A DNA stretch of 36,644 nt from NCBI GenBank assembly GCA_030603215.1, contig JAUVYF010000007.1, forward strand, positions 1-36,644. The letters are read 5' to 3'. The position numbers and the translations under genes are program-made. This stretch comes from Candidatus Bipolaricaulota bacterium. Lineage in GTDB: Bacteria; Bipolaricaulota; Bipolaricaulia; UBA7950; UBA9294. Positions 13,399 through 16,819 of this stretch are shown here, in pieces (the first letter of the stretch is position 1; every line of letters starts with the position of its first letter). The notes beneath the pieces were generated by a model. It did not search any database, was not told the origin of the DNA, and was given only the letters and a program-made list of their open reading frames with translations.

Positions 13399-15122
13399 TG
13401 AAGTCTCTTATCCATCCGGGGAAGGAATGGAAGCTCTCTGCTTGTCCAAGTGATAGCCTGATTCACGAGATTCAAGAAGCAATTCCCTGTAAACGGCCGT
13501 TTGCTGTCTTGCTCGCGCAACGTGGCGGGCAGAAATGGGAGACACTGATGAATCCTTGTTCTCGGGATCTTCATTGCTCTTCTCTGATGCTGGGAGTGGA
13601 AAAGGCCGTCTCCCGATTGATTCAGGCAATTGAGAAGAAGGAAAAGGTATTCATCCACGGAGATTTTGACGTAGACGGCTTGAGTGGAGCAGCCGTCCTT
13701 TACAAGGGCCTGCTACCCCTGTTCCCCAAAGAAACAATAAAGGTTGAGGTCGGTACTCGCAAGCAAGGGCACGGCTTGTCAGTCGGTTTTGTGCACCGGG
13801 CGATAGGTGGGTTGTTTTCACTTGTTCTCACCGTTGATTGTGGGATCTCCAACCGGGAAGAGATTTCCGAGCTACGTGATGCGGGGATTGACACAATCAT
13901 CACGGATCACCATCTGCCCAGCGGGGGGCAACTGCCTCCGGCTGTGGCCATCCTCGATCCGCATCAGGCGGGTGAAACATATCCTAACTGTGATTTGGCG
14001 GGAGTAGGTGTGGCCTACAAGTTGATCTGCGGGCTGTACAAACAACTAGGGCGAGAAGTTCCCTATTCTTTTCTAGATTTGGTTGGTCTGGGAACGATTG
14101 CGGACCTTGTTCCCCTTGCCAGGGGCTCAGAAATGGAGAACCGGGCGATAGTACAGGAGGCGTTTTCACTGTTAGCCAGCGGTACGGGATCTTCACTTGG
14201 CCTACGCGTATTAATGGATAAAATGTCAGTTAACGCAAGGAGAGTGACAACCAGAGACATTGCTTACATCATTGCTCCCAAGCTAAACGCGGCGAATCGT
14301 GCTGGTGATCCCAAGGTGGCTTTTCTTCTTCTTTGCACCGAAAGGCGCGCGCGCGCGCGATATCTAGCCGAGATCCTACTAGACTACAATCGCGATCGTG
14401 AGATCGCGCAAGATTATTTGTTGGGTCAGGCTGAGGAGAAGATAGTAGAACAGGGAACAAACCCGACAAGGGATGGCATCGTTATTCTTGCTGGAACGTA
14501 TTGGAATGAAGGGATACTAGGGCTTGCAGCTTCTAGGTTAGTCGACCGTTATCATGTTCCGGCAGTTGTTGTTTCTCGTGGAGATCGAGTGAGTCGCGCA
14601 TCTTGCCGGAGTATAGAAGGATTTGATATGGCGGAGTGCCTTGAGGCACATTCCGATCTGCTTATCCGTTATGGTGGGCACAAGATGGCAGCGGGGTTTT
14701 CGGTTTCAAATGATCTGCTTCCCGCATTGCGCAAGCGACTCTTGCTTTATGCTGCAGAAAAGAATCTGGCTCCTTTACCCGCGGCTGACAGCATTGATGT
14801 GGAGGTTGTCCCTGATGGGATCGATATACAGCTCCATACCAACCTGCGCTCGTTAGCTCCTTACGGCCAAGGCAATCCTTTACCCATCTTTCTCTTACGG
14901 GGATGTTCATTTGACGGTCTCTCTCTGGTGGGCGCACGAAAGCAACACCTAAAGGGAAAGGTTGCGTGTGATGAATCACGGGTTCCATTTATTGCTTTCC
15001 GGATGTCAAGGTATGTCAATGCCTTTGACAGCGCATGTGACGTTGCCGTTGTTTTTAGGGCTGGATTCGATCGCTGGCATAAAAAAGTGCAACTAGAAGT
15101 TATTGACTTGGTGGAAAACTAA
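13398..15122 (+). CDS. recJ: Single-stranded-DNA-specific exonuclease RecJ
   Basis: HGDFDVDGLSGAAVL, TVDCGISN, TDHHLP, GVGVAYKLICGL (DHH/DHHA1), RYGGHKMAAGFSV; overlaps secF stop. Confidence 0.9.
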   Translation: MKSLIHPGKEWKLSACPSDSLIHEIQEAIPCKRPFAVLLAQRGGQKWETLMNPCSRDLHCSSLMLGVEKAVSRLIQAIEKKEKVFIHGDFDVDGLSGAAVLYKGLLPLFPKETIKVEVGTRKQGHGLSVGFVHRAIGGLFSLVLTVDCGISNREEISELRDAGIDTIITDHHLPSGGQLPPAVAILDPHQAGETYPNCDLAGVGVAYKLICGLYKQLGREVPYSFLDLVGLGTIADLVPLARGSEMENRAIVQEAFSLLASGTGSSLGLRVLMDKMSVNARRVTTRDIAYIIAPKLNAANRAGDPKVAFLLLCTERRARARYLAEILLDYNRDREIAQDYLLGQAEEKIVEQGTNPTRDGIVILAGTYWNEGILGLAASRLVDRYHVPAVVVSRGDRVSRASCRSIEGFDMAECLEAHSDLLIRYGGHKMAAGFSVSNDLLPALRKRLLLYAAEKNLAPLPAADSIDVEVVPDGIDIQLHTNLRSLAPYGQGNPLPIFLLRGCSFDGLSLVGARKQHLKGKVACDESRVPFIAFRMSRYVNAFDSACDVAVVFRAGFDRWHKKVQLEVIDLVEN

Positions 15123-16819
15123 CCATTCTCTTCGCTAATGGAGATGAAAGCAAACAGATCTAGGACGAGACGGGCTACAAGAACCCTGGCAATGAAAATT
15201 GGTATTGTAATAGCGCTCTTGATTCGATATGGTTGGCGCAACAGGCGGTACAACCATTCTAGACCCATCCGTTGCCAGTGAATCGGCGCTCGTCTGCAAT
15301 TGCCGGCAAACACATCGAGCGCTCCTCCAACCCCGAGCATCAGAGGTACATGAAGTCTATCTTTGTGCTTGGCCATCCATAACTCTTGCTTGGGAGCTCC
15401 CATTCCTACTAGAAGAATATCTGGGGTTGCTTGTGTAATTGTTCTTATTATCGTTTCATCATCGTCGAAGTAGCCGTGATGGGCGCCCACAATAGTAAGG
15501 CTGGGGAAGCGCTCTTTTATCCTGTCTCTTGCTCGCCCCGCCACTCCTTCTCTCCCTCCAAGAAGGAAGATACGGTAACCTTTTCTGTTTGCGAGCTCTA
15601 ACAGGCGTTTTGTGAGGTCAATTCCTGTGACTCGTTCTTTGAGTGGTAGGCCAAGCAAGCGAGTTGCCCAAATGATCCCTACTCCATCTGGAGCTATAAG
15701 ATCCGCGCTCAGGTATGCCTTGCGAAGGATCTGATTCTTTCTTGCTCGCAGCAAAGCCACGCTGTCCGGCGTTACGATAACATGAGGCCGCCTAGGAACG
15801 AGAAGCATCTTTTCTAGACGGCAAAGAGCTTCGTCCAATGCTAGGTTGTTAAATCCTATTCCGAAAACGAGACGCCGAGATCCCTGCTTAGTTACCCAAC
15901 GTTTGGCAAGCCCATTGGAAACAGGCTTACGAAGAAAGTGTACCGCAAACAGGAAAGGTATGACTGCAGCAGCAAGAAACCCATACACTGGAGAGAGATG
16001 AACACCAAGCACAGCTCCTATGGTGAGGGCGCTTGACAGGACCAATAGCAGGAACGCGACTTCACCTTGAGTGTACCCCCGTGCAACAAGCCATGGAGGC
16101 AGAGGCTTTACCCTGGCTCTGGCCGATCCCTGAGCGATAAGTCCATAAGAAGTGGTCATGATTGGAAGGGTGATGATAGCAAGTGGAGCTAGTAACGAGA
16201 GGGAAATCGGTGTTTTCATGACCCCGCTGATTCCATAGAGCGCCAAACAGAATGCTACTGTGCGATGAAGTTTGATCAACAGTCCACGGTGGCCTTGATA
16301 GACAGCAACTGCCGTTGCTAACAGAATCCCCAACAGGGCGAATGGGAGGTGAATTGCGATTTGCTCCAGGCGTGCTTGTGGCGATATCACTGTGAGTAGA
16401 ATAGCATTAACCACCAGAATAGCATCAAAAGCAAGCTGTAGCGCTGGACGAGGAAGAAGTCGAGAGAGCTCCTCGCGCGAGCGCATGATGATGAGAATCC
16501 AAACGACAGTAAGGGGAAGGGAGATCCAGTTAAGGTATATGTAGCCACCCGCTGGATTGGTGAAAAAGTGTATGCGAAAACCGAATAGAACAGCTATAAG
16601 AGCTGCAACGAGTCCTTGAAGGAAAGGTGTAGCTCCTCGATTGGGTAGATCGAGAGAGAGTACAAAAAGCCCTAATCCCAGCCCGAGAATCTCTATTCGA
16701 GGTCCGACTGTGAATAGCAGTGCTAGTACTGGCAGGCACCAGGCCGTACGGTGTAGATAACGTGTCCCCGATATGCCCACCAATCCGGCTATGGCTGAGG
16801 AAACAAGCCCATATATCAT
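15119..16819 (-). CDS. WecG/TagA/CpsF-family glycosyltransferase fused to an N-terminal polytopic domain resembling WecA/MraY-type phosphoglycosyltransferase
   Basis: C-terminus: PDGVGIIWATRLLGLPLKERVTGIDL, LLGGREGVAGRA, MGAPKQELWM, GVGGALDVFAGNCRRAPIHWQRMGLEWLYRLLRQPYR; N-terminus: GFRIHFFTNPAGGYIYLNWISLPLTVVWIL, similar to WecA. Confidence 0.85.
   Translation of the reverse strand: MIYGLVSSAIAGLVGISGTRYLHRTAWCLPVLALLFTVGPRIEILGLGLGLFVLSLDLPNRGATPFLQGLVAALIAVLFGFRIHFFTNPAGGYIYLNWISLPLTVVWILIIMRSREELSRLLPRPALQLAFDAILVVNAILLTVISPQARLEQIAIHLPFALLGILLATAVAVYQGHRGLLIKLHRTVAFCLALYGISGVMKTPISLSLLAPLAIITLPIMTTSYGLIAQGSARARVKPLPPWLVARGYTQGEVAFLLLVLSSALTIGAVLGVHLSPVYGFLAAAVIPFLFAVHFLRKPVSNGLAKRWVTKQGSRRLVFGIGFNNLALDEALCRLEKMLLVPRRPHVIVTPDSVALLRARKNQILRKAYLSADLIAPDGVGIIWATRLLGLPLKERVTGIDLTKRLLELANRKGYRIFLLGGREGVAGRARDRIKERFPSLTIVGAHHGYFDDDETIIRTITQATPDILLVGMGAPKQELWMAKHKDRLHVPLMLGVGGALDVFAGNCRRAPIHWQRMGLEWLYRLLRQPYRIKSAITIPIFIARVLVARLVLDLFAFISISEENG

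Follow-up and report, generated by a model that had tools for sequence, protein, structure and literature searches.

A WecA/TagO-like membrane domain that has lost its catalytic residues is fused to an intact-looking WecG/TagA glycosyltransferase in Bipolaricaulota and four other phyla

How scarce polyprenyl-linked intermediates are passed between membrane enzymes is an open question in the teichoic acid, enterobacterial common antigen, and capsule pathways. The window analyzed here, a 36,644-nucleotide stretch from a Candidatus Bipolaricaulota bacterium (assembly GCA_030603215.1, contig JAUVYF010000007.1), poses it through one gene whose product carries a membrane domain ahead of a WecG/TagA glycosyltransferase. 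What is this N-terminal domain (N-domain), and what might it do for the enzyme behind it? An earlier note, made from the sequence alone, read it as a dead WecA and proposed that it docks the lipid substrate or anchors the enzyme to the membrane. Our analysis supports a membrane domain that descends from WecA/TagO, is catalytically dead, and is fused to a WecG/TagA that looks intact; its function, docking or anchoring, is something we can only infer. For this handover, a dead first-step enzyme that is joined to the second-step enzyme and retained by selection in five phyla would offer a natural model. The gene and its two domains are located as follows.

15119..16819, minus strand: pseudo-WecA::WecG fusion gene (566 aa, ATG start, no internal stop)
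15881..16819, minus strand: N-terminal domain, residues 1-313, a predicted WecA/TagO-like pseudoenzyme of the PNPT fold (profile-profile comparison with controls, AlphaFold/Foldseek)
15122..15880, minus strand: C-terminal domain, residues 314-566, a predicted WecG/TagA/CpsF (GT26) glycosyltransferase with a C-terminal appendage (PF03808, 7mpk/5wb4, Foldseek)

The Pfam scan of the window protein returned no PF00953 match, so its resemblance to WecA had to be pursued with profiles and relatives. We compared an N-domain profile of 19 relatives with eight genuine WecA/TagO sequences by hhalign, and the two aligned over 229 collinear columns with an E-value of 2.9e-16 and a probability of 98.7. The window N-domain sequence alone gave 1.2e-09, and the positive control, the true homologue pair MraY and WecA, gave 3.8e-17. 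The negative controls were clean (reversed WecA alignment, 0.075; column-shuffled, 0.58-0.81; YidC and SecF, >0.2). With these values, the WecA-like string pointed out in the earlier note, GFRIHFFTNPAGGYIYLNWISLPLTVVWIL at residues 80-109, is more than a chance likeness. Residues ~40-300 run collinear with WecA/TagO/TarO (PF00953), the polyprenyl-phosphate N-acetylglucosamine (GlcNAc)-1-P transferases, in the same helix order and with the hairpin of outer loop EL4. Common to WecA/TagO and the N-domain are also the GFRI-FxTNPxGG motif and a stretch over transmembrane helices (TM) 8-9. In addition, PF00953 scored above its curated cut-off in the same-architecture fusions L155 (4.9e-19), L159, L039, and L130; such fusions came from Atribacterota, Armatimonadota, and, in one case, Synergistota.

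A PDB sequence search using the N-domain profile gave no match, and a comparison of folds was therefore needed. AlphaFold models, built from an input alignment without any genuine WecA, reached a predicted local distance difference test (pLDDT) score of 75 for the full protein, and a pLDDT of 73 with a predicted template modeling score (pTM) of 0.73 for the N-domain alone. The models show the membrane helices of the superfamily, about 9-11 being predicted, and its outer beta-hairpin. In Foldseek, MraY and DPAGT1 accounted for each of the 12 best PDB matches of the N-domain model (probability 0.99-1.00, TM-score about 0.45-0.5, modest E-values of 0.02-0.2), and the next matches dropped to a probability of 0.41. 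These solved PNPT members, the nearest solved folds, differ from the N-domain in being active enzymes with Mg-binding Asn/Asp and in having no glycosyltransferase fusion. Taken together, the profile comparisons and models support a WecA/TagO homologue whose fold, in keeping with the earlier note, is MraY/DPAGT1-like; the note's polytopic WecA-like domain stands, with its length corrected from ~330 to ~313 aa. It is hardly credible that the N-domain comes instead from a different polytopic family and resembles WecA locally by accident, or that its WecA-like fold is an artefact of prediction. The missing Pfam match on the window N-domain, the weak Foldseek E-values, and TM-scores of about 0.5 would fit such an origin, but the controlled profile-profile comparison rules out an unrelated domain, and the Pfam matches in homologous fusions, the conservation across phyla, and intermediate sequences that retain ADDVHTLP and PARMMLGSSG also speak against it.

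Could a domain of this descent still act as a WecA? We aligned 79 fusion N-domains with 13 genuine enzymes, E. coli WecA (EcWecA) among them, and scored eight catalytic Asp/His positions. Genuine enzymes retained 7-8 of the eight, apart from two truncated sequences without the HxHH region, which retained five. The window protein retained none, and its four lost sites were placed by alignment.

16643..16648, minus strand: lost catalytic site 1, EcWecA D90/D91 replaced by L58-P59
16433..16483, minus strand: lost catalytic site 2, RSREELSRLLPRPALQL (residues 113-129) at the position of NxxNxxDGxDG, with EcWecA N153, D156, and D159 replaced by E116, S119, and L127
16256..16294, minus strand: lost catalytic site 3, GHRGLLIKLHRTV (residues 176-188) at the position of FMGDxGS, with EcWecA G216/D217 (D217 being the Mg-binding Asp of GDxGS) replaced by L181/I182
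16076..16114, minus strand: lost catalytic site 4, RVKPLPPWLVARG (residues 236-248) at the position of HxHH, with EcWecA H279/H281/H282 replaced by P239/P241/P242

Compared with EcWecA, the fusion has thus lost every one of the four catalytic motifs, along with cytoplasmic loop 1 (D35, R40, K41, H43). The earlier note had mapped the lost motifs correctly to within a few residues, and no catalytic aspartate is preserved in the window protein. The most that any of the 79 pseudo-domains retained was three of eight (L155, Armatimonadota); none of them, across five phyla, holds the catalytic set, and no intact WecA::WecG fusion that could stand for the ancestor was seen among them. In DPAGT1, the Mg-binding residues are Asn185 and Asp252 (PMC6218659). 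By family alignment these appear to correspond to Asn153 and Asp217 of EcWecA, both of which are gone from nearly all 79 pseudo-domains. Intermediates keep traces of the motifs (GVADDVHTLP and PARMMLGSSG in L155, NSIGQADELGD in L039; genuine enzymes have DD, GDSG, and NSINLIDGLDG), which is what stepwise loss would leave. The old catalytic positions also carry fixed lineage-specific residues, for example D156 and Y281 in 20/20 Synergistota, and these vary from phylum to phylum. Given that all catalytic residues are lost, the N-domain is predicted to be without GlcNAc-1-P transferase activity.

The WecG/TagA half, by contrast, looks intact. PF03808 (WecG/TagA/CpsF) matched residues 372-535 with an E-value of 1.5e-65 over profile positions 1-166 of 168, residues 314-566 aligned with the solved Thermoanaerobacter italicus TagA (7mpk/5wb4; E 5.4e-53 for 7mpk), and Foldseek matched the domain to the TagA fold at 1.7e-12. 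All of the motifs listed in the earlier note (PDGVG, GALDVFAG, RAP, and GLEWLYRLL..P.R) are present. Alignment to 7mpk placed the following equivalents.

15770..15772, minus strand: T350, equivalent of TagA Thr37
15686..15688, minus strand: D378, equivalent of the catalytic Asp65 of TagA, invariant among the relatives aligned
15170..15265, minus strand: C-terminal appendage, residues 519-550, with R525 and R532 as equivalents of TagA Arg214 and Arg221

Structural work on T. italicus TagA has linked Thr37, Asp65, Arg214, and Arg221 to catalysis (PMC6493773), and it is because T350, D378, R525, and R532 occupy these positions that this half looks intact; the equivalent of Arg224 is a serine, S535. 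Fold, catalytic Thr/Asp, and appendage arginines are shared with TagA/TarA/WecG (GT26), and the C-terminal membrane helix of the TagA type is still present. The known proteins are about 250 aa long and peripheral, whereas the fusion has an integral domain of ~313 aa before the enzyme. Since NCBIfam scores fell far under the equivalog cut-offs for TarA (350 bits) and WecG (323 bits), the exact sugar, N-acetylmannosamine (ManNAc) or N-acetylmannosaminuronic acid (ManNAcA), is not fixed by sequence.

If the N-domain is dead, what has been kept in it? Among close relatives of the window, the ratio of nonsynonymous to synonymous substitution rates (dN/dS) was 0.12-0.20 for the N-domain and 0.09-0.30 for the WecG half, leaving out the L018/L020 pair because its codon alignment was out of register. 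Purifying selection acts on the N-domain as on the WecG half. Local or recent gene decay was ruled out by these low ratios and by a reading frame that runs uninterrupted in nearly all of the relatives that were read. Two retained stretches stand out by conservation.

16493..16582, minus strand: outer loop EL4 and start of TM5, residues 80-109 (GFRIHFFTNPAGGYIYLNWISLPLTVVWIL), modeled with beta strands at 85-87 and 93-95
16154..16255, minus strand: TM8-TM9 stretch, residues 189-222 (AFCLALYGISGVMKTPISLSLLAPLAIITLPIMT), with G199, K202, P212, and P219 conserved

Over the 79 pseudo-domains, W107, K202, and P219 are conserved in 100% and G80 and G199 in 97.5%. Genuine enzymes conserve G199 in only 5/13 and K202 in only 7/13; as far as the alignment tells, these two residues are constrained specifically in the dead family. 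K202 (16214-16216) is the lysine of a GxxK motif where TM8 is predicted to reach the outer face, found in 79/79 dead domains. EL4, the TM5 start, and TM8-TM9 with its kink prolines are retained, and the cytoplasmic catalytic motifs are lost. DPAGT1 binds dolichyl phosphate in a groove that lies below EL4 and is bounded by transmembrane helices TMH4, TMH5, and TMH9 (PMC6218659), and by helix correspondence the retained parts would match the side of this polyprenyl-lipid groove. Basic residues concentrate in the predicted cytoplasmic loops of the model (RSREELSRLLPR, HRGLLIKLHR, ARARVKPL, RKPVSNGLAKRWVTKQGSRR), with few on the outer side. Such a distribution fits the WecA topology, and together the two would place the WecG domain on the cytoplasmic side of the membrane, which is also where its substrate arises.

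We surveyed genomes by PF03808 and open-frame length, counting WecG frames of at least 500 aa as long; length alone is no proof of an N-domain. Among WecG-positive genomes, long frames occurred in about 113/118 Synergistota, 27/53 Bipolaricaulota, and 19/41 Atribacterota, and Armatimonadota had many too. On reading fetched loci, we found the pseudo-WecA N-domain in 20/20 Synergistota, 14 Atribacterota, 25 Bipolaricaulota, 19/21 Armatimonadota (the other two loci hold a different fusion), and one Riflebacteria. The two-domain architecture that the earlier note had suggested seeking in related genomes is therefore present there, and its extent was understated. In the N-domain tree, 56 dead domains grouped as a single clade, separate from genuine WecA/TagO (SH-aLRT 99), with one clade each for Armatimonadota, Atribacterota, and Bipolaricaulota. 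This suggests a single origin, with the reservation that the tree came from a quick search and has long branches, and that shared loss of constraint could help the grouping. In the WecG-domain tree, free Bipolaricaulota WecG lay among fused ones, and from this placement repeated loss of the N-domain in that phylum, leaving WecG alone, is probable. A search of 15 genomes without the fusion for a separate pseudo-WecA gene found none, only genuine WecA or fragments and one broken remnant. At L193 (G028:C194:2233-2520), in a genome without a PF03808 match, an N-domain remnant with an in-frame TGA looks like a decaying copy.

Most models annotate the fusion genes only as WecG/TagA glycosyltransferases, leaving the N-domain largely invisible in current annotation. 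The fusion is a new combination of known parts. The literature searched describes no TagO/WecA-like domain on TagA/WecG, although subscription journals were mostly outside the search and the absence is weak evidence. To our knowledge, there is no earlier pseudoenzyme of the MraY/WecA superfamily, and none turned up in the same literature.

Is an active WecA available alongside the dead one? The window genome, a metagenome-assembled genome, has an intact MraY (C48), an intact WecA (C134; L190:5748-6668, plus strand), WecB epimerases, and an LCP-type ligase as in wall teichoic acid pathways. WecA lies ~1.7 kb from a WecB-type UDP-GlcNAc 2-epimerase, which adjoins a GalE-like epimerase, all on a different contig from the fusion. 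The separate intact wecA/tagO that the earlier note had asked about thus exists, and its intact motifs rule out the fusion as a WecA replacement. Among 59 relatives surveyed, at least two PF00953 genes were present in 18/18 fusion genomes (at least 80% completeness) versus 15/29 non-fusion genomes (Fisher p 2.5e-4, uncorrected for kinship). In the Atribacterota locus L039, the order is pgi/pmi-like, intact tagO, galE-like, dead-TagO::TagA, mreD, PBP2, rodA, names that apart from tagO were read off the sequence and not scanned. Ten more Atribacterota loci have an intact tagO (NxxNLIDGLDG) about 1.1-1.3 kb upstream of the fusion. The position of the cluster beside mreD, PBP2, and rodA-like genes hints at a link of the polymer to cell elongation. 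A further Atribacterota locus, L166, has the same tagO/galE-like/dead-TagO::TagA cluster upstream, and only an mreD-like gene was seen after it.

These observations lead us to a reading in which the dead WecA domain serves as a lipid-binding or docking module that places WecG where undecaprenyl-pyrophosphate-linked GlcNAc (Und-PP-GlcNAc) is made, to which we give roughly even odds (about 0.5). The WecA reaction, which yields Und-PP-GlcNAc, and the WecB reaction, which yields UDP-ManNAc, are established, and both genes are present here. The separate WecA would thus make Und-PP-GlcNAc, WecB would supply UDP-ManNAc, and the WecG domain, with its catalytic residues kept, would transfer the second sugar, presumably ManNAc or ManNAcA, on the cytoplasmic face. 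The dead domain, judging from its residue losses, would no longer bind UDP-GlcNAc or Mg; it keeps EL4, the TM5 entry, and the kinked TM9, whose apparent counterparts line the polyprenyl-phosphate groove in DPAGT1, and it may receive or hold the undecaprenyl part of Und-PP-GlcNAc, possibly while sitting beside WecA. WecG would thereby be fixed at the site of substrate production rather than rely on a weak peripheral membrane helix. Free TagA and WecG are peripheral membrane proteins held by C-terminal helices (PMC6493773; PMC12212991), so a fixed link to this site has a plausible benefit. Only tentatively, and at clearly less than even odds, would we extend this docking role to an ancient pseudoenzyme family that arose once from TagO/WecA, became fixed in Synergistota and, in part, in four further phyla, and passes the lipid intermediate from WecA to WecG, so that the initial and second reactions of glycopolymer synthesis would be channelled through one complex.

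Several points weigh against docking. Some Bipolaricaulota without the N-domain keep WecG alone, so the domain is not strictly required; the assignment of groove residues relies on matching helices rather than on a model with lipid in place; and the position of DPAGT1 Lys125, which contacts the lipid phosphate, is K/R in 14/14 Atribacterota, whereas most Bipolaricaulota, among them the window protein, have neither residue there. Moreover, the stronger conservation of K202 and G199 in dead domains than in genuine WecA suggests an added role beyond lipid binding. That last point would suit a hetero-oligomer scaffold, in which the dead domain mainly pairs with intact WecA to tether WecG and lipid binding is secondary. 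MraY and DPAGT1 are dimers (PMC6218659), a separate WecA is nearly always found in fusion genomes, and in Atribacterota the two genes share a cluster. The dimer interfaces of MraY and DPAGT1 differ, however, so none can be assumed (PMC6218659), and the WecA of the window genome is on another contig; we regard a scaffold as unlikely, if worth keeping in mind.

A plain membrane anchor for WecG appears less probable still. It would draw on the cytoplasmic placement of the fusion, on the need of free TagA/WecG for a membrane helix (PMC6493773; PMC12212991), and on the repeated loss of the N-domain in Bipolaricaulota. Yet the C-terminal membrane helix is still there, and about ten helices, W107/K202/P219 invariant in five phyla, and a dN/dS as low as that of the enzyme half would all be superfluous for an anchor. 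It is this invariance of specific intramembrane and outer-face residues that makes substrate docking appear better supported than mere anchoring. Very improbable, lastly, is an enzyme with changed chemistry, such as another transfer, hydrolysis, or a flipping step. The lineage-fixed residues at old catalytic positions (as in Synergistota) are what one might expect of it, but they differ by phylum and no common active site is visible, the Mg-binding Asn153 and Asp217 are missing from nearly all members, and the window protein keeps none of the old Asp/His. Substrate docking is thus the reading that we retain.

In the window, the fusion gene lies downstream of yidC, jag, and mnmE, which share its orientation, and it has a 4-bp overlap with the end of recJ, which converges on it. 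Four Armatimonadota loci (L156, L164, L179, and L181) have two STAS domains C-terminal to WecG, confirmed by Pfam (PF01740/PF13466) in L164 and L179 and alike by eye in L156 and L181; a regulatory form of WecG is possible. In another Armatimonadota locus, L180 (3875-5284), a Bac_transf domain (PF02397) precedes WecG, with only profile positions 81-178 of 179 matched. Here too an initiating sugar-phosphate transferase domain stands ahead of WecG, but Bac_transf is an unrelated monotopic family, unlike the PNPT domain of the fusion. L180 reads RLHRLPALLN where the Bac_transf family usually has SLDELPQLxN, and it could be another case, of independent origin, of a dead initiating transferase joined to WecG.

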